DNA from: Flavipsychrobacter sp.
Lineage (GTDB): Bacteria > Bacteroidota > Bacteroidia > Chitinophagales > Chitinophagaceae
Assembly (NCBI GenBank): GCA_031292525.1
Contig: JARLGY010000064.1
Location: forward strand, 62,001-126,000
Length of the DNA: 64,000 nucleotides
Direction: 5' to 3'
The first letter of the stretch is position 1. Each line of letters begins with the position of its first letter. The position numbers and the translations under genes are program-made. Below the pieces are notes generated by a model that had not been told where the DNA came from, ran no database searches, and saw only the letters and a program-made list of their open reading frames with translations. Below are positions 34,510 through 57,913 of this stretch, piece by piece.

Positions 34510-34512
34510 CCC

Positions 34513-38639: not shown

Positions 38640-38662
38640 TATAAATATATCTACAAAAAGAA

Positions 38663-39061: not shown

Positions 39062-39074
39062 TAAAATCAACACC

Positions 39075-39629: not shown

Positions 39630-39657
39630 TTAATTTTAGTTTTTATCTTTCTCACAC

Positions 39658-40587
39658 ATGCGCAAATCATTACTGCTAATTATACTTTTTTCCAGCGTTT
39701 CTGTACTGTCATTTGCACAAGATGATAGCCTGCTCAATATGCTGAATACAGGCATAAAACCTAAAAAAGAACCTGTATCAGCCACATTTAAAGCTACGCG
39801 CATCATTGACGGCAACAGTGTTGAAAATCTGGGAGCTGGCATCCTTGATTTTAGAATATTACATCGTTTTGGACAGTTAAACCAGGGAGCCAGCAACTTC
39901 TATGGTCTTGACGATGCCACTACAAAAATAGATCTTGATTATGGCATCACTAAATGGTTAATGGTAGGTATAGGCCATAATGTATTGAATAAGGAAGATG
40001 ATGGGTTGCTGAAAATAAAACTATTACAACAGCAAAATATAGGTATGCCGGTAACCGTAAGTTATGCAGGTGCTTTATCTATACAAACAACGCCTGCACC
40101 AACGTTGCCAACAGGAGATACATGGAAGTTCACCAACCGGCTCTACTACACAAACCAGATACTCATAGCCCGGAAATTCTCCAACAGACTTTCACTGCAG
40201 TTAATGCCATCTATTGTGCATTATAACCTTGTTGATAGCACCAAATTCTCAAACAACACTTTTGCGCTCGGTGCGGGTGGAAGGTTTAAAATAAGCAAGC
40301 GTATAGCTATAACCGGCGAATACTATTATAGGCTCAGCAATACAGATATGCTGTATAATGGCCAGCCAACTTACAATTCATTTTCTGTGGGTATTGACAT
40401 TGAAACCGGCGGCCATGTATTCCAGCTCATGCTGACCAATTCACAGAGCCTGAGCGAAAGAGGCTTTATTGGTCAAACCACAGATAGCTGGTCAAAAGGA
40501 CAGATACATTTTGGCTTCAATATCTCAAGAGTATTTACTATAGTAAAACCTAAAGAATTTAAAGACGCTGATAATAAGAAGTGGTAA
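39658..40587 (+). CDS. DUF5777 family beta-barrel protein
   Basis: A 309-residue exported protein, probably an outer-membrane barrel. The signal peptide covers about residues 1-20 (ending SFAQ). The segments ATRIIDGNSVENLGAGILDFRI and HRFGQLNQGASNFYGLDD and alternating hydrophobic strands up to the end match DUF5777 proteins of Bacteroidota. It ends the YceI/heme/OB-fold cluster and is followed by a strong hairpin. Function is unknown; transport or anchoring of a periplasmic redox component is one possibility. Confidence 0.8.
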   Translation: MRKSLLLIILFSSVSVLSFAQDDSLLNMLNTGIKPKKEPVSATFKATRIIDGNSVENLGAGILDFRILHRFGQLNQGASNFYGLDDATTKIDLDYGITKWLMVGIGHNVLNKEDDGLLKIKLLQQQNIGMPVTVSYAGALSIQTTPAPTLPTGDTWKFTNRLYYTNQILIARKFSNRLSLQLMPSIVHYNLVDSTKFSNNTFALGAGGRFKISKRIAITGEYYYRLSNTDMLYNGQPTYNSFSVGIDIETGGHVFQLMLTNSQSLSERGFIGQTTDSWSKGQIHFGFNISRVFTIVKPKEFKDADNKKW

Positions 40588-41348: not shown

Positions 41349-42245
41349 ATGGATCAATACAGGATGATTGACAGCAAGGACTTTATTTCCTTCGTAGCGG
41401 GTTTTTCAGCCTTCGCTAAAAAAGTCCTTTATTACCTCCTTAGTTCGGTAAGGTCTGGCATTGCTATTTTCATAGTTATACTTGTTGCCACATCCTCAAT
41501 TGGGCTTTGGCATTGGTATAATACTAAGCCTTATTACGAGGCACAGATGGCGTGCACCTTCAACGACCTTACAAAGAAGGCCTACGGAGAGATGATACAT
41601 AATCTGGACATTCTGGTTAAAGATCATTCTTATAACAATCTGGCTGTTTTATTGAATATATCTCCAACCGATGCTCATAATATCATAAGTATAGAAGGGA
41701 AGAATATGGCTGGTAGTATGTTGTATGAAGATATTACACCCAATAGAGACCTTGAGCCTTTTTATATTGACGTAAAAACTAACGACAATAAACTATTGGT
41801 TGTTCTGCAACCTGTATTGATTAATTATTTGAATACAGCAAGCCCATTGTCTGTTAGGAGACAAAAAACCAATTCAGCTGCCATACAACATAAAATGGCT
41901 TATTTCAAAACAGCCATGCGGCGTACTGACTCTATTATATCTGAGTACAGAGTACGAATAAACAAAACTAATACCCCAACAGTATCAGCAGATACTTTGG
42001 CGAGCCTTATTGCATCAACTGACACTATGGACAATAGGTATATGGAGTTGAGGATGAAAGAACAGACAGGGAATGTTCCTGTTCAGATACTCCATGGTTT
42101 TGTATTTTCTGAGCAGCCAGTTACAGAAAGAAATAAAGCTTTAAAGATCACTGTTGTTGCCGCAATTATCTTTGCATGTAGCGCATCTGTTGCAGCCCGT
42201 GTAATAAAAGAATCAAATACTATCACTAAAAGCACAAGTGCCTAG
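41349..42245 (+). CDS. Wzz-like chain-length determinant membrane protein
   Basis: A 298-residue protein with two membrane segments (about 34-54 and 266-284) and a periplasmic domain between them, the layout of polysaccharide co-polymerases. The region before the second segment contains FSEQPVTERNKALKI, close to the proline-containing motif of Wzz proteins. The central part diverges from well-known members. It opens the plus-strand operon of the polysaccharide locus; the first radical SAM gene starts right at its stop. Confidence 0.68.
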   Translation: MDQYRMIDSKDFISFVAGFSAFAKKVLYYLLSSVRSGIAIFIVILVATSSIGLWHWYNTKPYYEAQMACTFNDLTKKAYGEMIHNLDILVKDHSYNNLAVLLNISPTDAHNIISIEGKNMAGSMLYEDITPNRDLEPFYIDVKTNDNKLLVVLQPVLINYLNTASPLSVRRQKTNSAAIQHKMAYFKTAMRRTDSIISEYRVRINKTNTPTVSADTLASLIASTDTMDNRYMELRMKEQTGNVPVQILHGFVFSEQPVTERNKALKITVVAAIIFACSASVAARVIKESNTITKSTSA

Positions 42246-42246
42246 T

Positions 42247-43716
42247 ATGGAAATACTCTTTTCTCACTCCTATTTTTTACGCTTCGATCCTAAACAATGG
42301 GCGTTGCAGCAGCCGTATGCTCCGCTGGGCACGTTATACGCTGCAGCATTGATGAGAGAAGAAGGACATAGCATATCCTTATTCGATACTATGTTTGTAG
42401 AAGCTCCTGAAGAGGTTTTACCCGTATTGGAAACACATAAACCAACTGTATTTGTTATTTACGATGATGGGTTTAACTACCTCACAAAGATGTGCCTCAC
42501 CAATATGCGCGAGGCTGCATTCAAAATGATAAAAATTGCAAAAGATAAAAATTGCAATGTCATCGTCTCCAGCTCAGACTCAACGGATCATTACGAGCAA
42601 TACCTTGCAGAAGGCGCAGACTTTGTATTAATGGGTGAAGGGGAGATAACACTAAGTGAATTAACAAAGGCTATTCAAAATAATGAGCACGATTTTTCGG
42701 CGATTAAGGGCCTGGCATATAAGAACAAAGGTTGCATTATAAAAACATCCGGCAGAGGTGTTATCAAAGACTTGGATGCCCTGCCATTACCTGCATGGGA
42801 TTTAGCAGACATTAATGCCTACAAACAACGTTGGATAAAGAGCACTGGTTATTTTTCTATTAACATAGGTACTACCCGTGGTTGCCCTTTTAAATGCAAT
42901 TGGTGTGCTAAGCCTATATATGGTAATCGATACAATTCCAGATCTCCCAAGAATGTGGTTACTGAGTTAGTATTATTGAAAAAAATGTATCAGTTTGATC
43001 ATGTATGGTTTTGCGATGACATTTTTGGGCTGAAGCCAGGCTGGGTAAATGAATTCGCCACCTTGGTACAAGAAGAAAAACTACAGTTTAAATTCAAAAT
43101 ACAATCGCGTGCCGACTTATTATTGCAAGACAACTACATAAAAGCATTATCAAAGGCTGGATGCGATAATGTATGGATGGGTGCAGAAAGTGGAAGCCAG
43201 AAAATACTGGATGCCATGGATAAAGGGATAACCACAGCGCAGATAGCAGAAGCTACAAAATTGCTAAAAAACAACAATATAAAGCCTTCATTCTTTATTC
43301 AGTTTGGTTATCTTGGAGAAACGAAGGAAGATATAAAGGCAACCATACAGATGATCACCACCCTGCTTCCTTCAAGCATTGGCATTTCGGTATCTTATCC
43401 GCTTAAGGGTACATTGTTTTATGAAAAGGTGAAGACGGATATGCATGAAAAAACAAACTGGACAGATTCTGATGAATTGCAAATGATGTTTAATAATACA
43501 TACCAACCAGCCTTTTACAAACAGCTGCACAAGTATGTACAAAAAAATCACAGGAAATACATTGCTTACGATTTCCTGAAGAAGATAGTAAGGCATCCTT
43601 CTTTACTATCAATAGCAACAGCCAGGAAGATCGTTTCAATACTTTATTATATACCTGCAGTGTTTTATGAGAAAATGAAACTTGAGGCACTTGAAAAACA
43701 GCAATTGTATGAATAA
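42247..43716 (+). CDS. radical SAM protein with B12-binding-like N-terminal domain (first)
   Basis: A 489-residue radical SAM enzyme. The [4Fe-4S] motif is C213-x3-C217-x2-C220 in TTRGCPFKCNWCAKP. The N-terminal part (YAPLGTLYAAALMREEGHSISLFD) follows the B12-binding domain pattern of this superfamily, but no DxHxxG cobalt-ligand motif was seen. Later parts ADLLLQ, WMGAESGSQKILDAMDKG and FFIQFGYLGET are typical of the MiaB/BchE-like barrel. The frame extends to GTG 42238; ATG 42247 just after the previous stop is preferred. It overlaps the next radical SAM gene by 8 bases. Substrate unknown, probably a sugar or lipid of the polysaccharide pathway. Confidence 0.85.
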   Translation: MEILFSHSYFLRFDPKQWALQQPYAPLGTLYAAALMREEGHSISLFDTMFVEAPEEVLPVLETHKPTVFVIYDDGFNYLTKMCLTNMREAAFKMIKIAKDKNCNVIVSSSDSTDHYEQYLAEGADFVLMGEGEITLSELTKAIQNNEHDFSAIKGLAYKNKGCIIKTSGRGVIKDLDALPLPAWDLADINAYKQRWIKSTGYFSINIGTTRGCPFKCNWCAKPIYGNRYNSRSPKNVVTELVLLKKMYQFDHVWFCDDIFGLKPGWVNEFATLVQEEKLQFKFKIQSRADLLLQDNYIKALSKAGCDNVWMGAESGSQKILDAMDKGITTAQIAEATKLLKNNNIKPSFFIQFGYLGETKEDIKATIQMITTLLPSSIGISVSYPLKGTLFYEKVKTDMHEKTNWTDSDELQMMFNNTYQPAFYKQLHKYVQKNHRKYIAYDFLKKIVRHPSLLSIATARKIVSILYYIPAVFYEKMKLEALEKQQLYE

Positions 43717-45208
43717 GATACTATTATTTAATCCTCGTAGTGGCGTGGCTAAAGCACGTGTGCCTAACGCCATAATGAATATAGCAGCGTCTGTTAATGA
43801 TAAATACGATTGGGTTATTGTTGATGGTAACCAGGAAACAGACCCTTATCTGAAAATAGCCAGCCATTTAAAGACCGGCGAATTTAAATACTTAGGGTTT
43901 ACAGTTATGCCTGGCCCCCAATTGAAGCAAGCTATACCGTACGCGAAGCAAATAAAAGAACAATTTCCTGACACTAAAATGATTTGGGGAGGCTACTTCC
44001 CCTCTAATCATTACAAAGTAGTATTAGACTCCGGATATGTTGATTTTATCGTTAACGGCCCGGGAGATAATGCGTTTCCACGCCTTATAGATGCACTTGA
44101 AAACAACGCACCCTATGAACTTATTAAGAACCTCATCTTTAAGTCTGGAGATACCATACTAAAAACCATAAAAGAAGATCTTATAGAACAAGATGATCTT
44201 CCTCCACTGCCATACGATAAACTAGATAAACTCTACCCTATTCCCAAATACCTTGGTAAGACTTATTTGGGTAAAAAAACATTTGCGTATCATTCCAGTA
44301 TTGGGTGCCCTTTTACTTGTTCATTTTGCGCAGTAGTCCCCATATATGAAGCCAGGTGGAAAGCCAAATCTGCACAACATGTTTATAATGACGTAAAATA
44401 CGCAAAAGATAAATGGGGAGCAGACGCAGTTGAATTCCACGATAACAACTTCTTCGTTTCCGAAAAGAGAGTTATAGAATTTTCTAAACTCATAGAGCCA
44501 GAAAACATGAAATGGTGGGGCATGGCCCGCATAGATACCATGTCTAAGTTTAAAGACTCAACGCTGCAACTGCTAAGCGATGCCGGATGTGCTATGATAT
44601 TTTTTGGTGCCGAAAGTGGTAGTAACGAAATTTTGAAGGAAATGGATAAAGGAGGCACACAAACAGGCGAGCAGATCCTGGCTTTCGCAGAAAGGCTCAA
44701 GAAATACAATATTGTTCCAGAATATTCCTTTGTTTTAGGGACACCTGGGCCTACCCCAGAAAAGGTATCGGCACAAATAGATTTCGAAATAGATTTCATA
44801 AAGAAAGTAAAAGACATAAATCCTAAAACAGAGATCATCATTTATACATATAGTCCAGTTCCTACAGAAGGCTCTGAAATGTATAAACAGGTTTTGGAGA
44901 AAGGTTTTAAATTTCCACAAAAACTGGACGATTGGATAAGCCCGGCATGGGAGAACTTCGATCTACGTAAGAATCCACTCACACCATGGCTTACGCCCGA
45001 AATGATAAATAAAATACGGGATTTCGAAACGGTGCTCAATGGATACTACCCTACGGCAGCCGATATAAGAATGAGTACTTTTAAACGTAATGCTATCCGC
45101 TTTTTTGCATCTATACGGTACAAAACCAATTTCTATTGGAAGCCCTATGAACTGAAAGCATTACAAATATGGTGGAAGTACCGTCAACCTGAAATTGAAG
45201 GATTTTGA
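43709..45208 (+). CDS. radical SAM protein with B12-binding-like N-terminal domain (second)
   Basis: A 499-residue radical SAM enzyme, paralogous to the upstream gene. The cluster motif is C200-x3-C204-x2-C207 in SSIGCPFTCSFCAVVP. The N-terminal FNPRSGVAKARVPNAIMNIAASV and the MIWGGYFPSNHYKVVLDSG region resemble a B12-binding domain without the usual histidine motif. The barrel shows FFGAESGSNEILKEMDKGG and VLGTPGPTPE. ATG 43709 (overlapping the previous stop by 8 bases) is preferred to the extended frame at 43682. The pair probably performs two steps, or one heteromeric step, on the same substrate. Confidence 0.85.
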   Translation: MNKILLFNPRSGVAKARVPNAIMNIAASVNDKYDWVIVDGNQETDPYLKIASHLKTGEFKYLGFTVMPGPQLKQAIPYAKQIKEQFPDTKMIWGGYFPSNHYKVVLDSGYVDFIVNGPGDNAFPRLIDALENNAPYELIKNLIFKSGDTILKTIKEDLIEQDDLPPLPYDKLDKLYPIPKYLGKTYLGKKTFAYHSSIGCPFTCSFCAVVPIYEARWKAKSAQHVYNDVKYAKDKWGADAVEFHDNNFFVSEKRVIEFSKLIEPENMKWWGMARIDTMSKFKDSTLQLLSDAGCAMIFFGAESGSNEILKEMDKGGTQTGEQILAFAERLKKYNIVPEYSFVLGTPGPTPEKVSAQIDFEIDFIKKVKDINPKTEIIIYTYSPVPTEGSEMYKQVLEKGFKFPQKLDDWISPAWENFDLRKNPLTPWLTPEMINKIRDFETVLNGYYPTAADIRMSTFKRNAIRFFASIRYKTNFYWKPYELKALQIWWKYRQPEIEGF

Positions 45209-45234
45209 TAGGGTTATTTCATAATGAGGATCAG

Positions 45235-46038
45235 ATGGATAATGAGCATCTTTCAGCCAGCGCTTTTACGAGGCAATCGGTAGTCTTTGACGATACATAT
45301 GCGTCAAATACCATCATCCAATACAAAAGGGCAAGAGTAAGAAATCATATTGATCAATTCTTGCCGCACAATAGCCAAATATTGGAGTTGAATGCAGGCA
45401 CAGGAGAAGATGCTATTTATTTTGCACAAGAGGGACATCAGGTACATGCTACAGATATTTCTTCTGGCATGTTAGACAAGCTAAGGGCAAAGGTGAAAAA
45501 CCAAAAACTGGAGAACAACATTTCTATCGAACAATGTTCATTTACTCAATTAGCCGGCCTAAAGAGAAAGGTTCCATACAATCTTATTTTCTCCAATTTC
45601 GCTGGGCTTAATTGTACCGAAAATCTGGAAGACGTACTCCGATCTTTCAAACCATTACTTGCTGATAATGGACTGGTTACACTTGTTATACTCCCCCCCT
45701 TCTGCATGTGGGAGTTCCTGCTGTTATTTAAAGGGAAATTCAAAACAGCTTTCAGGCGACTTAATAGTAAAACTGGCGCTGATGCACACCTAGAGGGCAT
45801 AAATTTTAAATGCTGGTACTACAGTCCATCTTTTATTGTCCATACACTAAAAGACGATTATGAGCTATTAGGAGTAGAAGGATTATGCAGTATTGTGCCT
45901 CCATCATACCTAGAAGGTTTCGCTGAAAAATATCCAAAACTCTTCACAAAACTTAAAGCATTTGAAGATCGTCATAAAGCCCAATGGCCATGGAAGAACA
46001 TTGGCGACTATTATATAATAACCCTGCGTAAGAAATGA
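45235..46038 (+). CDS. class I SAM-dependent methyltransferase
   Basis: A 267-residue methyltransferase with the SAM-binding motif ILELNAGTGEDAIYFAQEG, the acidic HATDISSGML loop and NLIFSNFAGLNCTENLEDVL as later motifs. ATG 45235 follows a GAGG sequence and is preferred over the TTG at 45205. It starts shortly after the second radical SAM gene and overlaps the glycosyltransferase gene by 4 bases. A role in O- or N-methylation of a sugar, or in finishing the product of the radical SAM pair, is inferred. Confidence 0.82.
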   Translation: MDNEHLSASAFTRQSVVFDDTYASNTIIQYKRARVRNHIDQFLPHNSQILELNAGTGEDAIYFAQEGHQVHATDISSGMLDKLRAKVKNQKLENNISIEQCSFTQLAGLKRKVPYNLIFSNFAGLNCTENLEDVLRSFKPLLADNGLVTLVILPPFCMWEFLLLFKGKFKTAFRRLNSKTGADAHLEGINFKCWYYSPSFIVHTLKDDYELLGVEGLCSIVPPSYLEGFAEKYPKLFTKLKAFEDRHKAQWPWKNIGDYYIITLRKK

Positions 46039-47141
46039 TACGACTTATTGATGTAACATACTATACGCACCTGGAGTATGACACACCAGAGCAGATACTT
46101 CATCATCACAAAGAGTCTTTGGGTTATATCCATTATTTAAAGGACCGAATGCAAGTGCAGGTAATAAAGCACTTAAATTATGAAGGGGTTCTAGAGATTG
46201 ATGGGACTAAGATTTCCTTTTTAAAAAGCAGGAATAAGTTTTTTCACATCCCTTTAAAAACACACCGATACATAAAATCACAAAATCCCGACATAATGAT
46301 TGTACAGGGATTGGTATTCCCGGTACAACTCATCTTTCTGAAAATGTTGTTAGGTAAACAGTGTCACTTCTTGGTACAGCATCATGGAGAAACGCCATTT
46401 AAAGGCGTGAAAGGCTTATTTCAAAGATTGGCAGATTATTTTATTGATGGCTACCTATTCACCGCAGCAGGCAACATCCATATTTGGAAGCAGCGTAGTG
46501 TTATAAAACAGGGGAAACCAGATTATGAAGTATTGGAAGCAGCCACCCATATGACAAGACAAGACAAAGCAAAATGCCAGGCATCTTTAGGGATAAACAG
46601 TACTGATACCTTTTTATGGGTAGGCAGGCTGGAGGGGAATAAAGATCCGATAACGGTATTGCTTGGTTTTGAAAAATATGCCAAAGAAAACCCTAGCACC
46701 TGCCTTTACATGATATACCAGGAAACCGACCTGCTGGCGGAGGTGCAAAGTTTGATAAAGGGAAGCCATATTTTAAGTGCAACGGTGCACCTGGTTGGGA
46801 AAGTAACTAAAGAAGAATTGCCGACATGGTTCAGTGCTGCCGATTTCTATTTATCTGGCAGCCATAAAGAGGCCGCAGGATTTGCTTTGATAGAAAGCAT
46901 GACCTGTGGATGCATCCCTATTGTTACAGACATTCCGCCATTCAGGAAAATAACAAATGGATACGGCCTTTTATATAGTCCCGGCAACGCGGACGATTTG
47001 TATGCAGCGCTCAAAAAGACAAAAGAAATATCCAAAGAAAATGTATCTGCCGCTATAACACGTTACGCGCAACAAAAACTATCCTTTAAGTCCATAGCAG
47101 AAGACATCTATAAGATAGCAAGGGATATTACACGTAAATAA
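46035..47141 (+). CDS. GT4-like glycosyltransferase
   Basis: A 368-residue GT-B transferase. The C-terminal nucleotide-sugar domain has FLWVGRLEGNKDPITVL, ATVHLVGKVTKEELPTWFSAADFYLSGS and KEAAGFALIESMTCGCIPIVTDI, with the E-x7-E-like pair of family 4. There is no membrane segment. It ends the plus-strand operon and nearly touches the convergent minus-strand operon (9 bases apart). Donor and acceptor sugars are unknown. Confidence 0.85.
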   Translation: MIRLIDVTYYTHLEYDTPEQILHHHKESLGYIHYLKDRMQVQVIKHLNYEGVLEIDGTKISFLKSRNKFFHIPLKTHRYIKSQNPDIMIVQGLVFPVQLIFLKMLLGKQCHFLVQHHGETPFKGVKGLFQRLADYFIDGYLFTAAGNIHIWKQRSVIKQGKPDYEVLEAATHMTRQDKAKCQASLGINSTDTFLWVGRLEGNKDPITVLLGFEKYAKENPSTCLYMIYQETDLLAEVQSLIKGSHILSATVHLVGKVTKEELPTWFSAADFYLSGSHKEAAGFALIESMTCGCIPIVTDIPPFRKITNGYGLLYSPGNADDLYAALKKTKEISKENVSAAITRYAQQKLSFKSIAEDIYKIARDITRK

Positions 47142-47150
47142 AACCCCGCA

Positions 47151-48209
47151 TCAGCTTTCAAATAACGCCATCATTGCAATAGCAACGTCATCAGCTTTAT
47201 ATGGTGTTACGGAGTAAAAAGGAGTAAGTTCATCAGTCAAAAGCTCCTTAACCTTCATTACCATCTCATCCTTATTACTTACATGGTGCCAGTGCGGGAT
47301 AGTGACATCCATAGGCTGGGTAAAGCTCACTACATGAGCACCCGCATGCAATGCTTCCAGACATACAGTGCCAAAACCCTCATAATTAGATGTGTGCAGA
47401 AAGATCTTTGTACGCTGCATATATTGCAGCACATCTGCATGGGGAACCTCACCCTTTAAACTCATATTCTCCTGTATCTTTAAAGCTATAACATGGTTGA
47501 TGATTAGGTTACGCTCAGGACCATCCCCACACAATACAGCCTGCAACTCAGGGAGTTCCTGCACTAAACTCCCAACCACTTTAGTGAAAATATCATATTG
47601 CTTTAAAGGTATCAGCGAGCCCGCACCCAGTACATCAATGGTTCGTTCGCTGCATTGTGCCGTAAACTGGTTCGTATCCACGCCTATCGGTATCACTTGC
47701 CCAGGTTCAACACCATGATTTTTATAAAATTCTCTTTTTAGAAAATCAGACATCGCTATTAACTCATTAGCTCCCGGACGAATGTATTTCACGTATTTGT
47801 TGCTCTTCTTTGCATCCTGTCCACATAACCACGTATAGTGCTGTATGTCTTTTTGTTTACCAAAATAGTGGCCCACTAATGCGCACTCTGTACACCACAG
47901 ACTAAACAATGCTATTATATTTTTAGTCTTTTGTATTTGCCTTAGTTTACGCCATACTCTTCTCCACACAAATACTCTGTGTAATTTCCCCCGTTCTTTC
48001 CCACCAAAACTTATCACCTCATTGTTCTCCCATTTATATATGTCTTCAAAAAATGGATATTGAAACGCAAGTATAATGATCTCTAACCTGGGATATGCTC
48101 TGTTCAGTGCACGCACATGGGTTTGTAAAAATGGCAGGCAAGTAGTATCATCCTTATTTTCAGGAAAGCCAGGAGTAAGTATTACAAGTGTTTTATCTTT
48201 CGGGCTCAT
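47151..48209 (-). CDS. GT4-like glycosyltransferase
   Basis: A 352-residue GT-B transferase with LVILTPGFPENKDDT at the N terminus and the donor-binding parts DVLGAGSLIPLKQYDIFTKVV, AVLCGDGPERN, and SNYEGFGTVCLEALHAGAHVVS in the C-terminal half. It is the last gene of the minus-strand polysaccharide operon, 9 bases after the amidohydrolase gene. It acts in the cytoplasm on a lipid-linked intermediate; specificity is not known. Confidence 0.88.
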   Translation of the reverse strand: MSPKDKTLVILTPGFPENKDDTTCLPFLQTHVRALNRAYPRLEIIILAFQYPFFEDIYKWENNEVISFGGKERGKLHRVFVWRRVWRKLRQIQKTKNIIALFSLWCTECALVGHYFGKQKDIQHYTWLCGQDAKKSNKYVKYIRPGANELIAMSDFLKREFYKNHGVEPGQVIPIGVDTNQFTAQCSERTIDVLGAGSLIPLKQYDIFTKVVGSLVQELPELQAVLCGDGPERNLIINHVIALKIQENMSLKGEVPHADVLQYMQRTKIFLHTSNYEGFGTVCLEALHAGAHVVSFTQPMDVTIPHWHHVSNKDEMVMKVKELLTDELTPFYSVTPYKADDVAIAMMALFES

Positions 48210-48218
48210 ATCATGTCA

Positions 48219-49370
48219 TCAATAAACCTTACAGGGGAAAATGGCATCTGGATAATACTCCCTTATCTCACTCATCAAACCAGGTAGGTCGCCATAAATA
48301 TACTTTATAGAATCACCTAAACTTATCTGACTAAAAGTATTCAGATCAATATTTGCATTGACCTGATCTAATATTGATTCATCAAATAATTTCACCTTTC
48401 CCTTCCGCATCACCAACAGTATATCTTGTGGTGCAATAGCATAAAAAGCATTATAGCCGGTCAAATCGTTTTTTTGTTTTGCCACAACAATATCAGCATC
48501 ATAATGGTTCTTGAGTTGTCCACTTTTTTTCAACTTCCACACTCTCGCGGGTTGTACAGTCAGCATTTTATACAATTCTTCCGGGCTAGCTTTCTGTGTA
48601 CTAAGTGCAGTACGCAATTGTGCCCATATATCCCATTGGGCAGACACAGTAGAGTCTGTACCAAAGAGCATATTAGTTCTGTTCTTCAAACGCTCAACAG
48701 GAGCTGTATTACCTATCAAAAAGAAATTGGATGAAGGGCACCACACAAGCGCTTTAAACGATTCTGCTTGCCTTTCATTCATTGCTATGCCATGCACGGC
48801 TACAATGCTCCTGTTCCATAAGTTCCATCTTATCAGGTTATCTATTTCATAATGGCTGCTTTCATCTGTGCCTTCGCCGGCGTGTATTACATAAGGTATT
48901 CGCCGTGCTATAAGATCATTCAGTTTATATTTCCAACCTTTCTCAAGCTGCACAGAATGCAGTGTATAGCAATCTTGAAAAACAGTGAGCAGATCATCTG
49001 CAACGCTCAGCCTTGGAGCATGGTTTACAACCGTTGTTATGCCATTAAGCAGATTCTTATACATACCCCATCTTACCCTCAAATGGCTGGGCACTTTTAG
49101 CACTGCATCAATTATTTCTTTATCCTGCAGGTGTATATCTTCGCCCCACTCCACATAGTTTTTATATATTCTATTACCTAATTGCGGAAAAAGATTAAAA
49201 TCGAGATGGTCGTGCGAGTTAATCAATCCAGGAAATACAATGGCATGCTCAAAGTAAATATCACTATTCCCGCCAGCGCTAACAGCACCAACCGCAGTAA
49301 TGTAACCATCAGTTACCTGGAGGTCAATAATACTATCATGAGTTATCTCTTGCAGGTTACGCAGTACCAT
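48219..49370 (-). CDS. amidohydrolase superfamily protein (cytosine deaminase/TRZ-ATZ-like)
   Basis: A 383-residue metal-dependent hydrolase. The metal motif INSHDHLDFN (His53, His55), VIHAGEGTDE, VAVHGIAMN and MLFGTDSTVSAQ are in the order expected of TrzA/AtzB/cytosine deaminase-like enzymes. It overlaps the methyltransferase gene by 14 bases and is followed by a glycosyltransferase, so it belongs to the polysaccharide operon, where such an enzyme is unusual. It may deaminate or deamidate a nucleotide-linked sugar or a building block; that is inference. Confidence 0.82.
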   Translation of the reverse strand: MVLRNLQEITHDSIIDLQVTDGYITAVGAVSAGGNSDIYFEHAIVFPGLINSHDHLDFNLFPQLGNRIYKNYVEWGEDIHLQDKEIIDAVLKVPSHLRVRWGMYKNLLNGITTVVNHAPRLSVADDLLTVFQDCYTLHSVQLEKGWKYKLNDLIARRIPYVIHAGEGTDESSHYEIDNLIRWNLWNRSIVAVHGIAMNERQAESFKALVWCPSSNFFLIGNTAPVERLKNRTNMLFGTDSTVSAQWDIWAQLRTALSTQKASPEELYKMLTVQPARVWKLKKSGQLKNHYDADIVVAKQKNDLTGYNAFYAIAPQDILLVMRKGKVKLFDESILDQVNANIDLNTFSQISLGDSIKYIYGDLPGLMSEIREYYPDAIFPCKVY

Positions 49371-50106
49371 TTTTCTTTTTTAAATGCACCCCATACACAA
49401 TGGGTACATTCCTGAATTTTTCAAAAACATGCAAAGCATTTTTCTCTTCATAATAATGCTTTAGGGAATCATCAATTACCTTTTCATTCCATGAAATAAC
49501 CTGTATATCCATTGGCAAAATAATGCTCAATATCTTTTCAATAGGATGCACATAGTTCTTTATAGAAATAAGTCTATCATGATGCACAAATGTTCTGTCA
49601 CCATTATTTGCCAATGCTGTAGGATGATAATCAGTTAGTATTATTTCACCTCCTGGCTTTAATACCCTGTTCCATTCGTTTAACGCAGCCCTTACGTCTT
49701 CAATATGGGCCAGAGTAAGTGTTGAAACAATAACGTCACAACTTTTGTCTGCCATTCCTGCTAACCTGTTATTGCTCAATTGATAAGTAACCGCAGCAGG
49801 GTATTTAATATTCAATTTAGCCAACATACCTGCTGATACATCATAACCCGTTATACCAGCCGGAGATTGCCTAAGCATTTCATGCCAGTGCCTACCGGTG
49901 CCGCAACCTACATCAATAACTTTCTTTCCCGTCAGTATTTCGCCTTGCAGCATATCTGTGAACAACTCCGCCTCAAGTATCAACATTAAGTTGTCAGGCT
50001 GGGCATCATATTGTTGCGCCCATAAGTCATATGCCTGTTCAGGGTTTATAGCTCTTATCGGTCTGTGAATGCTCAAATGTTTTCTAAGCTTTTCAATAAA
50101 TGTCAT
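49357..50106 (-). CDS. class I SAM-dependent methyltransferase (Methyltransf_11)
   Basis: A 249-residue methyltransferase with the SAM motif KKVIDVGCGTGRHW, the acidic YDVSAGMLAKL loop, CDVIVSTLTLAHIEDV and LKPGGEIILTDYHP. It lies between the nucleotidyltransferase-like gene (4-base overlap) and the amidohydrolase gene (14-base overlap), so their translation is coupled. Substrate is unknown; small molecule or sugar methylation is expected. Confidence 0.85.
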   Translation of the reverse strand: MTFIEKLRKHLSIHRPIRAINPEQAYDLWAQQYDAQPDNLMLILEAELFTDMLQGEILTGKKVIDVGCGTGRHWHEMLRQSPAGITGYDVSAGMLAKLNIKYPAAVTYQLSNNRLAGMADKSCDVIVSTLTLAHIEDVRAALNEWNRVLKPGGEIILTDYHPTALANNGDRTFVHHDRLISIKNYVHPIEKILSIILPMDIQVISWNEKVIDDSLKHYYEEKNALHVFEKFRNVPIVYGVHLKKKNGTA

Positions 50107-51038
50107 ACTGATAAGTTTTTATCTTCAAATTTAGAAAGTACAGTTAGCACTCTTTTCTGATGGTTTGCAGGATGATTTTTTGATATGTGCGGCGTTGTCT
50201 TAAAAGCAACATTATAGTCTTCCTCCGGGAAATTTTTCCGTGCCCATTTTTTCCTCCATTTTGCATCAGTTATCCGCATCAACAGTATATTCATTTTTCC
50301 AGGAAACGAAATGTTTGCAACGATCTCCAGCAATGCCTTAAAAAGGCCACCCTTAACAACTGCATTATTTTTATCATCGTCACCTCTCACATATCCGTTT
50401 GGCAGGTGATTGCTTACCCATAAATTATTATTCATCAGCAGAGTATATACCTCACTACCCGCTGCCGGTATCATGCTTGAAAGTTCAATTGCAGTAAAAC
50501 GATTTTGCTCTTCCAGCTGCATATTATGCATGTCAATAAAGTAGTTCATACAAAACTTATGTTGCTGCCCAAACAAAAAGGTTGTTTTTTTAAACAGGTG
50601 AAGCAGTGTGCGGCATATCCACAGTCTATTTTTTTCCGTTACTATAAAGAAATCAAAATCACTCTTTTGGTCCGCATACCCCTTTGACAAAGACCCTGAA
50701 ATACCAACAAAACGGACAAAAGGAAACTTGTAAATAAATTTACCTACTGCAAGGGCCTTTACTTTTTTTTCATTCGCCAGGCTATTTGCATCCTTTCTCC
50801 GCAGTACTTGTTCTTTTATATTTGCATCAAGACTAAAATAGCCTTTATGCATGTAAAGGCTTTCCGCTTCTTTCATATCTTCCAGGGTAACCAACAACTC
50901 CGAAAAAGGACAAATAATAGATAGATTACCAAAAATCTCATCAGCCTTCAATGGATAATTGAATATTACATAGTAACGCAATACACTAAGCACCGCATTC
51001 TCAATAGAGTCATCCATACAACGGCTTTCCAATCTCAT
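50103..51038 (-). CDS. nucleotidyltransferase-fold protein with winged-helix-like N terminus
   Basis: A 311-residue protein. The N-terminal region (about 10-75) has a helical, winged-helix-like pattern (LSVLRYYVIFNYPLKADEIF). A nucleotidyltransferase (Pol beta-like) core follows with SGSLSKGYADQKSDFDFFI, i.e. the GS...DxD metal site. It overlaps the sugar transferase gene by 4 bases (ATGA); ATG at 51017 is an alternative start. It occurs in the polysaccharide operon next to a methyltransferase and an amidohydrolase. Whether it modifies a sugar, nucleotide or protein is unknown. Confidence 0.7.
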   Translation of the reverse strand: MRLESRCMDDSIENAVLSVLRYYVIFNYPLKADEIFGNLSIICPFSELLVTLEDMKEAESLYMHKGYFSLDANIKEQVLRRKDANSLANEKKVKALAVGKFIYKFPFVRFVGISGSLSKGYADQKSDFDFFIVTEKNRLWICRTLLHLFKKTTFLFGQQHKFCMNYFIDMHNMQLEEQNRFTAIELSSMIPAAGSEVYTLLMNNNLWVSNHLPNGYVRGDDDKNNAVVKGGLFKALLEIVANISFPGKMNILLMRITDAKWRKKWARKNFPEEDYNVAFKTTPHISKNHPANHQKRVLTVLSKFEDKNLSV

Positions 51039-51739
51039 CGCTGTATATTTTTATTGAATGAAAGCACTACCGAAACGGTTTTTAAAAGTATCATCATATC
51101 CAAGCCAAACGATGACCTTTGCACATAAAATAAGTCGAGACGCGTCCGTCCATATATATCGTACTTATCTCGTAGCCCGCCATGATACCCTTTCACTTGT
51201 GCCAGCCCGGTTATCCCTGGTTTCATCCAATGCCTGTAATTATATTGTGGCAGTTCCGCAGAAAATCGCTGATGATGATAAAGCATATGCGGCCTGGGTC
51301 CAACAATACTCATCTCCCCTTTTAGCACATTTATCAATTGTGGCAGTTCATCTATATATGTAGCCCTAAGTATTCTTCCTATGCGGGTAATACGTTTGTC
51401 ATTCCATGCTGCACCAACAAGATCAGATTTATCATTAATCACCATCGTCCTGAACTTCAGGCACCTGAATACTTGACCATTGAGTCCAACCCGCTTCTGT
51501 ATGAATAAAGTGCCTCCTTTTGATGACATGTTAATGATCAAAGCCAACAAAGGATATAGCCAACTAAGCACACATAATATTAAGATCAACGATGCCATAA
51601 CATCAAAGGCGCGCTTTACATATAAATAATACCCTGCTTGCCCCCTACTATACCCAACAGTATAATATAGAGGATATAACCTATGATCTATGATGTTTAG
51701 ATCACTATTCCTGGTCGTTTCCTTTGTAACTGTATCCAT
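51035..51739 (-). CDS. undecaprenyl-phosphate sugar-1-phosphate transferase (WcaJ/WbaP-like core)
   Basis: A 234-residue priming transferase of the bacterial sugar transferase family, which puts the first sugar-1-phosphate on undecaprenyl phosphate at the inner membrane. It has one hydrophobic segment (about 47-70) preceded by KRAFDVM, then QKRVGLNGQVFRCLKFRTM, the RATYIDELPQLINVLKGEMSIVGPRPH core with the Asp-Glu pair, and GITGLAQVKGY. Length corresponds to the minimal catalytic form. It overlaps the upstream Wzy-like gene by 43 bases. Confidence 0.93.
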   Translation of the reverse strand: MDTVTKETTRNSDLNIIDHRLYPLYYTVGYSRGQAGYYLYVKRAFDVMASLILILCVLSWLYPLLALIINMSSKGGTLFIQKRVGLNGQVFRCLKFRTMVINDKSDLVGAAWNDKRITRIGRILRATYIDELPQLINVLKGEMSIVGPRPHMLYHHQRFSAELPQYNYRHWMKPGITGLAQVKGYHGGLRDKYDIYGRTRLDLFYVQRSSFGLDMMILLKTVSVVLSFNKNIQR

Positions 51740-52983
51740 TCCCCACTTATTATAATTGTAAATAAGAGTATTCCCGATTGTGTTTCCAGCACCGACTCCG
51801 TTAAGAAAAAAACCATAAACAACACTACCGCATAAACCAACATTGCATTGCTATAACGCACTGCTAAATACAAAGCATATCCCAATACTGTTAAAATCAA
51901 GATACCACCTGCTATACCATATTGCATATAGCTCTCCATGTATTGATTATGCATATTGTAATTCAGGTAACCTGTATCTCCATTTTTGCTATTGCCTGTG
52001 TACAGTTGGTAGTTCATCATTTTGGCATTAAGGTCTTCTTTGTAGTGTGCGCCGCCGTCGCCCTTTAACCACAGTCCTTTTTCATTCATCAATTCATAGC
52101 CGAGGCGCCATAGTACCAGTCGTAAACTCAAACCATCAAATGGATAATCTTTGAAATTCGTAGCGGTCAAGGCAGAAGAATAACTGGCAATGGTCACATC
52201 TGCAAACCGTTTTCGTATAGGGTTTACTGTAGTGGTAAGTATTAAGTAAACTCCGGCTGCTACTATCAGTAAAGTCACCTTTTGCCAGTTATTTTTTATT
52301 GCTTTGAATAACAGGATCAGCAACAATAAAGACCCAATAGCAATAGCAATTTTAGAACTAAGCAGCAATAGGTTGATGTAAAGAAATATACCAATACCTT
52401 TTACAAAATAAGGATTGAACGATGTTTGGTTTAGAACGACATACCCTATTGATGTGAGCAGATAAAGAGAAAAATAAATAGCATTCAGCCCTACAGCGCT
52501 GGAATAACTATGGTAAAAAAACACACCTGCGTCATGGGTATGGCTGTATTGTACAATAGCAATAGTCATGCACCATAGAGATGCAGCGATACACCCTAAA
52601 ACAAAACTGTTCAAACCTCTGTGCCATATATCTTCATAAGTAAGCGTCAGCATATATAACAACAATGGTATTCCTAATAGTGCCGCTTTCTCTTCTATCT
52701 CATGAATATTATCAAATACAGGATATCCATAGCATGCGACCAACTGCAAAACGAAATAGATTCCAAATGCAATCACGGTCAACTGTTTCCCATAAAAAGA
52801 ATAATCAATCCGAAATATGCCGGTAAACAATAAGGCAACACCAGTAAGTATAAACAATATGGTAGATACATGCGCCTGGTTAAGCCAAGGCAATGCAAAA
52901 AGAGCACACAAGAACATGCTATATATTATACGGTGTAGAGTACCTGTCGGTACTTTTCCCCGTACTTCCATTGGTTGAAACAT
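51697..52983 (-). CDS. O-antigen ligase/polymerase-like membrane protein (Wzy-like, first)
   Basis: A 428-residue membrane protein with ten or more hydrophobic segments and a larger periplasmic loop near residues 275-335 (LVLWRLGYELMNEKGLWLKGDGG, YNMHNQYMESYMQYG) that matches the O-antigen ligase family (Wzy_C). It probably polymerises repeat units or transfers them. The first ATG (52983) would overlap the upstream gene by 58 bases; ATG 52917, with no overlap, is also possible. A second Wzy-like protein is encoded at 55206. Confidence 0.82.
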   Translation of the reverse strand: MFQPMEVRGKVPTGTLHRIIYSMFLCALFALPWLNQAHVSTILFILTGVALLFTGIFRIDYSFYGKQLTVIAFGIYFVLQLVACYGYPVFDNIHEIEEKAALLGIPLLLYMLTLTYEDIWHRGLNSFVLGCIAASLWCMTIAIVQYSHTHDAGVFFYHSYSSAVGLNAIYFSLYLLTSIGYVVLNQTSFNPYFVKGIGIFLYINLLLLSSKIAIAIGSLLLLILLFKAIKNNWQKVTLLIVAAGVYLILTTTVNPIRKRFADVTIASYSSALTATNFKDYPFDGLSLRLVLWRLGYELMNEKGLWLKGDGGAHYKEDLNAKMMNYQLYTGNSKNGDTGYLNYNMHNQYMESYMQYGIAGGILILTVLGYALYLAVRYSNAMLVYAVVLFMVFFLTESVLETQSGILLFTIIISGEWIQLQRKRPGIVI

Positions 52984-54056
52984 GTTTCAATTTTTTCAGT
53001 TATCCTATCCCAATTGTATTCATTAGCGATCTTCAACCTATTGTTGAACAGCCATTTTTCCTGTTCCTTTTTTACATATGGTGCAGATATGATAGATACA
53101 AGATCTTTCGAATTCTTAAAGTAATAAGCATCTTTGCCCAGCACGTGTTTATTAAACTGGTTTTCATGTGCGCAGATCAGGGCATTACAACCCATGGCTT
53201 CCAATAGAGATGGATTTGTTCCGCCCACAGAATGTCCATGAATGTATAAGCGCGAATGATACCGCAACGCATTAAGCTGCATGGGGTCAAATATCGATCC
53301 GGAAAATACCACATCTGGATTCATCCCATACTCCTTATATAACCGTCGCCCGAAAGATGTATCATTATGATTACCGATTAGTACAATTTTCCTTCCTGGC
53401 ACAGCAGTATATGCTTTAAGCGTAGTTTCAATATTGTTTTCAGGTTCAAAACGGGCTATCAGCAGATCATAACCATTCGGTTGTACTGAGAACTCTGCCA
53501 AAACACTATAATCGTCATCAGTAGATTCATAAATATCCGCACCGTACGGTATCAGTTCAGCATCAGCATTATATTTGTCACGCAGGTATTCTTGTATTCC
53601 TTTTGAATCGGCAATGAGATGATCGCTATTGCGTACCCCCCATTTTTCAGCGTAGGTCAGAAAATACTGTATCGCTTTATTATACTTTGCTCTAGACCAT
53701 TCAAGCCCATCCATATTAGTTACAAGTATAGATGACTTAGGATAAAGCCATGACCATATTGTACTGCTTGTATAACCCAGTTGCAATATCACATCAAAAT
53801 TCTGTTTACGGCTATCACGTATACAGTTCAGGTCGTAAATGAATTGCCCCGCAGTACCTAACAAAAATTCAGGATCATAACAGCTTACTATCTGTACATC
53901 TTTATAGCTTTTTTGTTGGTAAGGATGCCTGTGCGAATTATAAACAGTTACCTCATGTCCCTTCTCTACCATACGTGTCGAAAACGTCTCAGCAAATTGC
54001 TCAAACCCTCCGTATTGATTGGGTATGCCTCTTGTTCCAATTATCCCGATCTTCAT
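52926..54056 (-). CDS. DUF1972/GT4 family glycosyltransferase
   Basis: A 376-residue GT-B transferase. The N-terminal MKIGIIGTRGIPNQYGGFEQ is the DUF1972 signature, common to rhamnosyl- and glucosyltransferases of capsule loci. The C-terminal GT4 part shows YDLLIARFEPENNIETTLKAY, VVFSGSIFDPMQLNALRYHS and HGHSVGGTNPSLLEAMGCN. Acts in the cytoplasm during repeat-unit assembly. It follows the next upstream glycosyltransferase gene after 10 bases. Confidence 0.92.
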   Translation of the reverse strand: MKIGIIGTRGIPNQYGGFEQFAETFSTRMVEKGHEVTVYNSHRHPYQQKSYKDVQIVSCYDPEFLLGTAGQFIYDLNCIRDSRKQNFDVILQLGYTSSTIWSWLYPKSSILVTNMDGLEWSRAKYNKAIQYFLTYAEKWGVRNSDHLIADSKGIQEYLRDKYNADAELIPYGADIYESTDDDYSVLAEFSVQPNGYDLLIARFEPENNIETTLKAYTAVPGRKIVLIGNHNDTSFGRRLYKEYGMNPDVVFSGSIFDPMQLNALRYHSRLYIHGHSVGGTNPSLLEAMGCNALICAHENQFNKHVLGKDAYYFKNSKDLVSIISAPYVKKEQEKWLFNNRLKIANEYNWDRITEKIETCFNQWKYGEKYRQVLYTV

Positions 54057-54066
54057 ACACTAAATA

Positions 54067-55209: not shown

Positions 55210-56444
55210 GCTTTTAAGGGTTTTAGCGTCGCTATCCACACTTTCTCATATTCAGGAAAAATAGAAGAAAACGCAATGATCCACACCAGGTATTCTGCTG
55301 TGTTTGTTATATAGCTACCGGTGAACTGATAAATAAAAGCAAATGCAAAAAGCCATAGCCTGTAGGGGCTTGTATATACTTTTGTTATAAAGAATAAAAC
55401 CGCTTCAACAACTAAACGAAGACAAAACCCAGCATACCCAAAGCAGACGATAGTTTCTGCGCAAGCATTAGGTATTCTTATGACTTCAGGTATTTTAGAA
55501 TACAAGTAGTACTGCACTATTATGTCACGGCCTATCAACTTTAGCTGACCGGGACCTAGACCCCACAAATAGCTTTTCTGTGCAATTACTTTGTTAGCCA
55601 ATATAAATGCTTCATAGGTCCTCCCACGTGCAGAAGTATCATCGCCATTGAAAATATTATGTATCCGAAGGAATAATATATTTTCGGGATTAATTCTATA
55701 CCAAACTAGAAGCAGGGCTATAATTGCCGTAACACCCACAAAAAAACTAACCCTGCTTTTTACGGTTGAAAACAACCGGGTAAAATATACTGTAAATACA
55801 ACAATGCTTCCAAAAACGATAGCGCTCAATACGCCCAGAGAAAAAGATGCAAGAAAGGGGACAGTAATAATAAAAAGAGTTAGTAATGGATTGGTGGTTT
55901 TAAAAAATATAGCTCTGCTATAAAAATAAATAGCCACCGGCGCCAGCAAGTAGCTATAATGCGACGCCTCTTCTGTAAACAACTTCAACCGAGGTACGTC
56001 TATGTTCAGGGAAACAGGCACCTTGTACCATACAATAGAATTGATGGAAGGGAAAAAGAGCAAACAAAAACTTAATAATGTAAAAAAGAAATTCAGAATA
56101 GCTATATCCTTGAAAATGAGGTCCCAATTAATAGCTGAGCTATTAACAAAAAAAGAACTCACTATAAGGAATGTTGTCATCCCTGCTATCATCAATACAG
56201 ATCGCGAATAGTAGATTATATCTACACCATGCAGCAGATGAATAGCTGCAAAAATGGTAAGAGGCATTAAAATACCTGCAACAATACTAAGCTTCCCCTG
56301 CAGGTATAAGAGATACAGCCACATTGGCGTCAATAAAAGGGTGTACGTAAGGCCCTCTGGCAGCAGAAAAGAGTTGAAGAAAAAGATGAGTATGGCAGAT
56401 ATCCAAACCCATCCATGCTTTACATGTAAGGTGTTTGTTGCCAT
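55206..56444 (-). CDS. Wzy-like O-antigen polymerase membrane protein (second)
   Basis: A 412-residue protein with about eleven membrane segments and a periplasmic loop near residues 270-325 containing NGDDTSARGRTYEAF and WGLGPGQLKLIGR, as in Wzy/EpsG-like polymerases. It is the second polymerase/ligase-type protein of the operon. It overlaps the flippase gene by 25 bases upstream and the glycosyltransferase gene by 4 bases downstream. One of the two may ligate rather than polymerise. Confidence 0.78.
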   Translation of the reverse strand: MATNTLHVKHGWVWISAILIFFFNSFLLPEGLTYTLLLTPMWLYLLYLQGKLSIVAGILMPLTIFAAIHLLHGVDIIYYSRSVLMIAGMTTFLIVSSFFVNSSAINWDLIFKDIAILNFFFTLLSFCLLFFPSINSIVWYKVPVSLNIDVPRLKLFTEEASHYSYLLAPVAIYFYSRAIFFKTTNPLLTLFIITVPFLASFSLGVLSAIVFGSIVVFTVYFTRLFSTVKSRVSFFVGVTAIIALLLVWYRINPENILFLRIHNIFNGDDTSARGRTYEAFILANKVIAQKSYLWGLGPGQLKLIGRDIIVQYYLYSKIPEVIRIPNACAETIVCFGYAGFCLRLVVEAVLFFITKVYTSPYRLWLFAFAFIYQFTGSYITNTAEYLVWIIAFSSIFPEYEKVWIATLKPLKA

Positions 56445-57913
56445 CTTCTGTTATTAAATAGGTTCGATAAATAGAATTTCCATAATAGCATACTTACTAT
56501 AATGGCAAGCACAATATATGCCCACATATTATTATCATTATAGAGCAATAATATGGCGCCATACATAGGTAACATTTCAAATAAAGCTTGCCTCCAGGAA
56601 TAAGTTTGATACATCTCTTTCTGCACCACAGCATTCACGGCAGGCATGGTAACACACATGGCAATCGTCATTCCACCAATCATAGCCATGGGTGTATGGT
56701 AGAGCCACAAACCACACAGCATAAACATGTAACAAACAGAACAGTAAACCAAAATAAGTTTTGTTGCTAAACGACCCTTACCTGCCGCATTTAGGTAGAA
56801 CGATGGCATTATGCTGTGGGCAAATACAATTTCAAAACCCACAAAATATTTTATATATACAAGCAGCATAGCCGATGTGTCCTTTCCCGCCCAGAAAGGT
56901 AAGAGCATTGGTGCTGCATAATTGAATGATAGGAGCGCAATTACTATGATTCCCAATACTGTTCCGCGTACCAGGTAATACAGTTTTGCCGGGTCTTCTC
57001 CTTTTTTCACCATCAAAGCTATCCGCGGCAATATCCAAAAGGCCATTGCAGTAAATATCATATGAATGTGGTTGAAAATGGTAGATACCAAACCATACCC
57101 TGAAACTACTTTCAACCCGAAATTCGAAGACACCCAAAAACGATCTGTTTGAAAAGTAAGCACAACTATAACCACTTGTATCCAGGGCCATATACTAATG
57201 TGTAAGATGCTTTTATATTGTCCACTTTCCCTTAGCTTGCCTATGCGCCAGGCTGGCATTATCCATTTTACGCAGCAGAATTGCAAAATGAGGTAAGCAA
57301 TTAAAAAAACTATGTTAGCCCACAATATTTTATCAAGCGAATAATGTGCTACAGCCATTACCAATGTTAGTCCCAGCGAGCCAAACCGGTATATCATATT
57401 AAGTATCGAAGACATTTTGAAACGTTCATAAGCCTTTATGATACTTTGAAATACCTGGTCGAAATATTTAAGGCCGGCTATTATAGTTGCCAGTAGAATG
57501 CACAATGCTACGTTCGTCCCTTTTGCATTGCCCAATCCCCACCATCCATTTTGCACAGCAACCAATGATAGGATATACCCAATACCTACTATACCAATAA
57601 AAAAAAGAAGAATGATGTGTAGCGTTCCGTTGACTATATCATTCATTTGCCGGGTATCATTATCTCCCGGTGCGGCAGAAACATTTCTTACGGTTGCCAT
57701 TCCCATGTTTGCAACCCCGGTATTAAAGTTGAATAATTGCAAAATGGTGATCATCGAGTTAAGCAGTATCCATAAGCCAAAGGTCACTAACCCCATACCA
57801 TGTATCATGATGGGAATTGTAGCTATAGATACAACCGGGTACAAGGCAGCATCTATCACACCCCACAAGGAGTGCTTTACGCCCTTCGGTATTTGCATCT
57901 TTTTATAAGCCAT
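56420..57913 (-). CDS. Wzx-like polysaccharide flippase
   Basis: A 497-residue MATE/MOP-superfamily transporter with about twelve to fourteen membrane segments, which would flip lipid-linked repeat units across the inner membrane. The start region GVIDAALYPVVSIATIPIMI and the FNTGVANMGMATVRN loop agree with polysaccharide flippases. It is the first gene of the ten-gene minus-strand operon. The region upstream (57914-58276) must hold the operon promoter. Confidence 0.87.
   Translation of the reverse strand: MAYKKMQIPKGVKHSLWGVIDAALYPVVSIATIPIMIHGMGLVTFGLWILLNSMITILQLFNFNTGVANMGMATVRNVSAAPGDNDTRQMNDIVNGTLHIILLFFIGIVGIGYILSLVAVQNGWWGLGNAKGTNVALCILLATIIAGLKYFDQVFQSIIKAYERFKMSSILNMIYRFGSLGLTLVMAVAHYSLDKILWANIVFLIAYLILQFCCVKWIMPAWRIGKLRESGQYKSILHISIWPWIQVVIVVLTFQTDRFWVSSNFGLKVVSGYGLVSTIFNHIHMIFTAMAFWILPRIALMVKKGEDPAKLYYLVRGTVLGIIVIALLSFNYAAPMLLPFWAGKDTSAMLLVYIKYFVGFEIVFAHSIMPSFYLNAAGKGRLATKLILVYCSVCYMFMLCGLWLYHTPMAMIGGMTIAMCVTMPAVNAVVQKEMYQTYSWRQALFEMLPMYGAILLLYNDNNMWAYIVLAIIVSMLLWKFYLSNLFNNRRWQQTPYM

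Follow-up and report, generated by a model that had tools for sequence, protein, structure and literature searches.

The window analyzed here is a stretch of 64,000 nucleotides from Flavipsychrobacter sp. (contig JARLGY010000064.1, positions 62,001 to 126,000 of the forward strand). It carries two intact genes for radical S-adenosylmethionine (SAM) enzymes, A (42247-43716) and B (43709-45208), which adjoin a Wzz-like gene, a methyltransferase gene and a glycosyltransferase gene. The full unit exceeds the plus-strand interval 41349-47141, and its minus-strand part (47151-57913) adds the amidohydrolase F8, the methyltransferase F9, the nucleotidyltransferase F3 and a Wzx/Wzy-type backbone. The first-pass annotation of this DNA did not include F8, the second methyltransferase F9 and F3, nor the SPASM-type radical SAM enzyme F4 found at related loci elsewhere.

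Relatives of A were sought with each species represented by one genome, and at least 544 were confirmed. The best 80 were fetched and, together with the window, give 81 loci. Motifs were counted in 81 A rows and 67 B rows, which are those kept after length filters (of 82 and 69). Judging from these sequences, the arrangement of A and B is not a chance one, since the iron-sulfur motif is complete in all rows and the methyltransferase F1 comes directly after A in 76 of 82 cases. The genes and motifs of the unit are listed below (AlphaFold2, AF2; predicted local distance difference test, pLDDT; glycosyltransferase family 4, GT4).

41349..42245, plus strand: Wzz-like protein of chain-length or copolymerase type; two membrane segments (residues 30-48 and 264-282) around a central domain
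42247..43716, plus strand: radical SAM enzyme A (family F0); PF04055 78 bits; PF02310 28.1 bits, under cut-off; AF2 fold of cobalamin radical SAM type
42883..42906, plus strand: CxxxCxxC iron-sulfur motif of A, CPFKCNWC; cysteines in 81/81 rows
43709..45208, plus strand: radical SAM enzyme B (family F2); PF04055 52.4 bits; PF02310 36.7 bits, above cut-off; GG loop in 67/67 rows
44306..44329, plus strand: CxxxCxxC iron-sulfur motif of B, CPFTCSFC; cysteines in 67/67 rows
45205..46038, plus strand: class I methyltransferase F1, the partner of A; Methyltransf_25 47.2 bits; start possibly ATG 45235
46035..47141, plus strand: GT4 glycosyltransferase F7; PF00534 62.6 bits; in 49/81 loci
47151..48209, minus strand: GT4 glycosyltransferase F6; PF00534 73.8 bits; in 51/81 loci
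48219..49370, minus strand: amidohydrolase F8 with deaminase-type metal site; PF01979 62.8 bits; HxH, HxxE, H and D in 47/47 rows
49357..50106, minus strand: class I methyltransferase F9, coupled to F8; Methyltransf_11 72.2 bits
50103..51038, minus strand: winged-helix and polymerase-beta-type nucleotidyltransferase F3; weak Pfam matches under cut-off; GS and DxD in 66/66 rows; AF2 pLDDT 88
51035..51739, minus strand: initiating sugar-phosphate transferase F17; PF02397 203.6 bits
51697..52983, minus strand: Wzy-type polymerase or ligase; PF04932 (Wzy_C) 34.4 bits against a cut-off of 31.7; 8 membrane segments
52926..54056, minus strand: GT4 glycosyltransferase with DUF1972 domain, F11; PF09314 79.6 bits
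54067..55239, minus strand: GT4 glycosyltransferase F13; PF00534 66.2 bits
55206..56444, minus strand: multi-membrane protein (412 residues), second polymerase- or ligase-like candidate; no Pfam match; 7 segments; relatives in G093, G159 and G168, which have loci free of radical SAM enzymes
56420..57913, minus strand: Wzx-like flippase candidate; no Pfam match; 12 segments; relatives in G093 and G159

Both enzymes match the Radical_SAM domain (PF04055) above the Pfam cut-off of 29.5 bits, and the CxxxCxxC motif is complete in every A and B row, window included, which bears out the earlier call of two radical SAM proteins with an intact iron-sulfur site. B12-like N-terminal domains had been proposed for both. 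The cut-off of the B12-binding domain (PF02310) is 32.1 bits, B scores above it and A below it, and hence this label is safe for B but less so for A. The cobalamin histidine motif was said to be missing, and indeed none of 82 A-family and 67 B-family proteins has DxHxxG in its first 200 residues. Nevertheless, this motif is usually missing from cobalamin-binding radical SAM enzymes as well, so its absence says nothing against cobalamin. Three other B12-binding proteins above the cut-off are encoded in the genome of the window, and therefore the cofactor is plausibly available to the cell.

One loop of the B12 domain sets the two families apart. It reads GG in all 67 B rows and Ser-Ser-Asp in A (S112 in 79/81, S113 in 80/81 and D114 in 80/81 rows); in a profile alignment the GG of CysS lies opposite the SS of A. 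We take the GG loop to be the one that contacts cobalamin. For A, AF2 gave a model of pLDDT 83 (under 50 in loops 79-85, 221-231 and 405-411). Nearly all of its chain can be aligned with AprD4 and cobalamin radical SAM enzymes, over both the B12-domain and the core fold. When solved structures were compared by VIA-align, the highest score was obtained with OxsB, the cobalamin radical SAM enzyme of the oxetanocin A pathway, which has the same B12-type N-terminal domain and radical SAM core (Z 27.8, 385 aligned residues, 2.9 Å) at 15% identity. OxsB is described as a non-methylating, ring-contracting enzyme acting on a nucleotide (PMC13142503). It was followed by AprD4, the radical SAM 1,2-diol dehydratase of the apramycin pathway (Z 26.2, 412 residues, 3.4 Å), whose structure entry is titled as a diol dehydratase with paromamine. 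AprD4 is matched by the profiles of both A and B, but it shares 17% identity with A and belongs to a secondary-metabolite pathway. We know of no polysaccharide context for OxsB. OxsA is presumably its HD-domain partner, and no HD-domain match appeared among the window genes scanned.

The nearness of A to these non-methylating enzymes in the structural model is a lean and not a result, since two other rankings put MgmA first, the glutamine methylase of methyl-coenzyme M reductase. MgmA reaches Z 25.3 by VIA-align (370 residues, 4.0 Å), and CysS (25.2) and TsrM (25.1) are likewise within about 3 Z of the top. By Foldseek E-value the methylases MgmA (1.7e-19) and TsrM come ahead of OxsB and AprD4, and by sequence profile the order is MgmA (77.6 bits), AprD4 (69.9) and OxsB (52.2). 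MgmA differs in having a protein substrate, and A scores 102.2 bits with the MgmA model TIGR04014, whose cut-off is 360. Most cobalamin radical SAM enzymes are reported to methylate, and TokK is also among the fold matches of A, together with TsrM and CysS. It is thus possible, although we doubt it, that A and B are both ordinary C-methyltransferases dependent on cobalamin, and that a sugar receives two C-methyl groups from them; the altered loop of A and its highest Z-scores with OxsB and AprD4 speak against this.

Neither enzyme reaches the cut-off of any curated family. The best curated model is BchE, the magnesium-protoporphyrin ester cyclase with a tetrapyrrole substrate, for A, and HpnJ for B. 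A and B were rejected as BchE (TIGR02026; 153.5 and 104.8 bits against 481.35), as HpnJ (TIGR03471; 130.1 and 106.4 against 577.6) and as members of the AprD4 family (NF033070; 62.2 and 42.5 against 500). HpnJ acts in hopanoid cyclitol ether synthesis after a glycosyltransferase, on lipid-borne glucosamine (PMC12583986). HpnJ is the second-best curated model for A, but the scores of A and B are under a quarter of its cut-off, and its neighbours differ.

For both enzymes the two leading curated models are HpnJ and BchE, and a ladderane-type model is fourth for A. This could suggest that, like HpnJ or ladderane-type enzymes, A and B act on a membrane lipid or on the polyprenyl carrier and are part of the locus on that account. 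Two genomes (G096 and G162) also have a set of A, F1 and a second A copy (A') away from the recurrent glycan families. We regard this explanation as unlikely, as the HpnJ scores of 130 and 106 bits are far under 577.6, and no lipid-synthesis domain was found among the recurrent families annotated by a representative, where F14 and F35 had no match at all and F32-F34 were outside the scan.

With respect to the locus itself, the plus-strand genes from 41349 to 47141 abut or overlap, with the possible exception of F1, whose ATG at 45235 would start 26 bases past B. The open reading frames (ORFs) of A and B open at GTG 42238 and TTG 43682, and the ATG codons at 42247 and 43709 are the likelier starts. 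The proposed coupling to a Wzz-like protein, a methyltransferase and a glycosyltransferase was confirmed, the last two by Pfam (the glycosyltransferase as GT4) and the first by its two membrane segments. Pfam and NCBIfam scans gave no match for the Wzz-like protein; in G093, G159 and G032 the same Wzx-like gene lies next to its relatives. As a Wzx/Wzy-type locus, the window has the PF02397 gene, four GT4 genes above the PF00534 cut-off and a Wzy_C match above cut-off, and Wzx and Wzz are candidates from their membrane segments only. The GT4 domain occurs at 24 places in the genome of the window at an E-value of 0.001, three of them within the locus. The base composition (G+C) shows no step at the locus.

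The 80 best relatives all come from Bacteroidota where a group is named. Among the 81 loci, including those cut by contig ends, F1 was found in 78, B in 69, F3 in 68, F4 in 63, F5 in 53, F6 in 51, F7 in 49, F8 in 48 and F9 in 47. Genes of the related loci are longest-ORF calls, in which some overlapping genes are lost, and a presence is therefore more reliable than an absence; each neighbour family was annotated via one representative. F1 follows A with a median overlap of 4 bases (76 pairs), and F8 and F9 are adjacent in 43 pairs with a median overlap of 14 bases. In G286, A and F1 form a natural fusion of 727 residues (L199:9741-11924). Recurrent glycosyltransferase families are present in 68/81 loci, and a wider glycan set (glycosyltransferase, Wzy, flippase, ABC or sugar-phosphate transferase, with one membrane family that has no Pfam match) in 72/81. 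The idea of radical chemistry in a surface polymer is therefore partly supported, in that radical SAM enzymes with a cobalamin-type architecture are tied to a surface-polysaccharide locus; its finer parts, C-methylation versus rearrangement and a sugar versus a lipid carrier, are not distinguished by these data.

F4 is a third radical SAM enzyme, located mostly between B and A (e.g., L123:8734-9783), and is assigned to the SPASM type by a SPASM domain in a G010 relative and by radical SAM and SPASM-type models for L123. The window lacks both F4 and F5, a further methyltransferase. Three radical SAM enzymes with methyltransferases and an ABC protein, F4 and the ABC protein being present in many loci, resemble clusters that make a ribosomal peptide or another secreted small molecule, and there are distant scores to peptide-modifying radical SAM models. 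We consider such a product very unlikely here. A conserved precursor peptide between the core genes was looked for and rejected: among 432 short-frame candidates, taken only from core-gene gaps of more than 60 bases, none had more than 3 matches in other loci. It is glycosyltransferases, Wzy and the sugar-phosphate transferase that recur instead.

Some other neighbours should also be mentioned. F19, F25 and a relative, with a weak flavin-reductase-like domain under cut-off, lie beside radical SAM genes in some loci (L133:4092-5024, L090:3110-4081, L061:1504-2406) and are perhaps electron-transfer partners. Some loci (L128, L116, L162, L119 and others) have membrane proteins inserted ahead of A, F24 and F30 with weak PMT_2-type domains and F35 with no match; these are possibly lipid-linked-sugar glycosyltransferases. 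Just upstream of the unit (33949-40587 of the window), two related small F32 proteins flank proteins of 947 and 253 residues; a similar gene row precedes B in L107, and part of one lies in L076, some 15 kb away from the A of G037. A membrane protein at 62661-63893, roughly 5 kb past the locus, has what we take to be the look of a nucleoside transporter.

Co-occurrence was examined in a class set of 149 genomes, with E-value thresholds of 1e-60 for A, 1e-100 for B, 1e-20 for F3 and 1e-40 for F8. A was found in 21 genomes, B in 18 and both in 17; F3 was present in 24, including all 21 genomes with A, and F8 in 3, all of them with A, B and F3. Fisher tests, in which relatedness is ignored, gave 1.1e-17 (A and B) and 1.0e-22 (A and F3). 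The distance between A and B is at most 6 kb in 9 of the 17 joint genomes, and in the other 8 they lie farther apart or on other contigs (G153 and G165 maybe by assembly breaks). A second, diverged A copy occurs in 13 of the 21 genomes (e.g., G158, L166:13971-15341), and the gene order B-F18-F3-A-F1-A' is found in G158, G135 and G181. In G096 and G162, B-F18-F3 lies beside a backbone operon of the window type, and A-F1 with the second A copy is on another contig. Phylum-wide, A was detected in 24 of 296 genomes at 1e-100; even in G323, which does not belong to the class, A, B, F1, F3, F5, F6, F8 and F9 occur together. Spread of A by plasmids was considered and rejected, with only 4 distant plasmid matches at 1e-20, none of them covering 80% of A.

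A comparison of loci with and without the pair had been suggested as a check and could be made with eight backbone genes (Wzz-like, Wzx-like, the 412-residue membrane protein, F13, F11, Wzy, F17 and F3). Most or all of them occur without A or B, at the class thresholds, in G093 (8/8), G159 (7/8, no F11 called) and G168 (7/8, no Wzx-like match), and G032 has 8/8 with A and F1 and no B. Since the same backbone is found with and without them, the radical enzymes look like an addition to it, with the backbone as their host. In G168, F17 and F3 form one reading frame of 556 residues (L176:9356-11026), a second natural fusion. The loci free of radical SAM enzymes have an epimerase-type gene beside F3 (L174:10428-11363, L175:8959-9867, L176:8452-9366), which was called by a Pfam match in G159 (L174) and by position, length and weak similarity to the window gene 94-1146 in G093 and G168. 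These three loci also have a distant relative of F1, with 26 to 29% identity.

The partners of B come in two forms. Sixty-five of the 69 loci with B carry F8/F9 or the methyltransferase F18 (F8 in 45 and F18 in 18 of the 69), and F9 accompanies F8 in 44 of the 45 B loci with F8. F18 never occurs together with F8 or F9 in the 81 loci (hypergeometric 7.8e-12, relatedness ignored). On a tree of A (82 rows, 71 with a state) at least 10 changes between F8/F9 and F18 were counted, and 10 is a rough minimum because the tree is a quick one with weak forks. F18 has the motif NPPY (18) or NPPF (1) in 19 of 19 rows, and F9 in none of 47; we take this motif for a common mark of methyltransferases whose substrates are planar amines. 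Most simply, the product would have a group (an amine, perhaps) for which two alternative treatments exist.

F8 has the metal ligands HxH, HxxE, H and D invariant in 47 of 47 rows, presumably a COG0402-type deaminase pattern. Its best solved relative is TM0936 (1.1e-9 by profile), which we assume to be a deaminase of S-adenosylhomocysteine (SAH) and 5'-methylthioadenosine, that is, of adenine type. Both share the metal-ligand pattern and HxxE, but the alignment covers parts only and F8 comes with F9. Named deaminases were rejected among the 25 of 43 matches listed, with 40.6 bits against 320 for the aminofutalosine deaminase family and 33.4 against 522 for 5'-deoxyadenosine deaminase. Going by its solved relative, F8 might simply recycle 5'-deoxyadenosine or SAH. 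We prefer to see it act on the product, because F8 with F9 swaps against a methyltransferase.

All 66 rows of F3 keep GS and DxD, the motif of the ANT(4'') and MNT nucleotidyltransferases. The match in fold to these enzymes is weak, and the Pfam scores of 20 and 19.2 bits for the polymerase-beta type are under the cut-offs of 26.9 and 21. Its model shows an N-terminal winged helix and an ANT-like domain (Z 8.1 over 113 residues), and F3 differs from those enzymes by this extra winged helix and by C-terminal helices. No solved nucleotidyltransferase matched the whole model; the best rows were winged helices, followed by ANT over the 113 residues.

These features could also fit a nucleoside-like or amino-heterocycle decoration of the glycan, in which F3 would add a nucleotide, the radical enzymes would remodel the ribose as OxsB does, and the amine would be hydrolysed by F8 or N-methylated by F18. 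The invariant motif of F3, the relation of F8 to TM0936 with its HxxE, and the presumed planar-amine motif of F18 agree with it, as does the highest Z of A with OxsB, which contracts the ring of a nucleotide. We find it rather improbable, as every link is a resemblance at the superfamily level, F3 is also present without any radical enzyme, beside the epimerase-type gene, and F8 is under the cut-off of every NCBIfam deaminase model among the 25 of 43 matches listed.

Regarding all this data, it seems somewhat probable that Bacteroidota have a modular kit of tailoring enzymes, A and B among them, by which one sugar in a Wzx/Wzy-type surface polysaccharide is remodelled. At the level of gene sequence, the links of the kit are those of A with F1 and F3, and of B mostly with F9 plus F8, or with F18. 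In this proposal, A and B would each cleave SAM to give a 5'-deoxyadenosyl radical, which would take a hydrogen from an unactivated sugar carbon, and the substrate would be an amino sugar on a lipid or nucleotide carrier, before flipping. B, with an intact loop, would probably use cobalamin to add a C-methyl group or to rearrange the ring. Given its altered loop and its highest fold Z-scores with OxsB and AprD4, A would more likely dehydrate or rearrange its substrate, and F1 would methylate the product of A. F9/F8 or F18 would act on the group exposed by B, and F3 would transfer a nucleotide, activating or marking an intermediate. This assignment of single steps to enzymes is a guess, and a doubtful one.

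Several observations weigh against this explanation. Recurrent glycosyltransferase families are missing from 13 of the 81 loci and any counted glycan family from 9, some of them on short contigs. The A-F1-A' set of G096 lies beside a phosphoenolpyruvate carboxykinase gene with no recurrent glycosyltransferase near, and the A locus of G449 has none nearby either. In the class set, 4 of the 21 genomes with A lack B (G032, G063, G094 and G107), and 1 of the 18 with B lacks A (G128). F8, F9 or F18 is also found in 5 of the 12 loci without a called B. When the AF2 model of F3 was compared with solved structures, Foldseek gave no match at 0.001, the best being of MntA type (E 0.015). The type of reaction is left in doubt by the rankings of A by Foldseek and sequence profile and by the close Z-scores of CysS and TsrM, given above.

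Searches of one open-licence literature collection found no published description of such a gene set. The recurrent set of partner genes is thus apparently undescribed; enzymes of this superfamily that act on sugars are already known. If the proposal is true, radical carbon chemistry as in the aminoglycoside, oxetanocin and hopanoid pathways would be a recurrent option for the surface polysaccharides of soil and water Bacteroidota, and the loci would point to a sugar made by no standard pathway. If the nucleoside-like reading were the true one, it would mean a bacterial coat polymer decorated with nucleosides. The tailoring kit, if real, would offer natural comparisons with and without the enzymes, interchangeable steps, and new radical enzymes with defined partner proteins.

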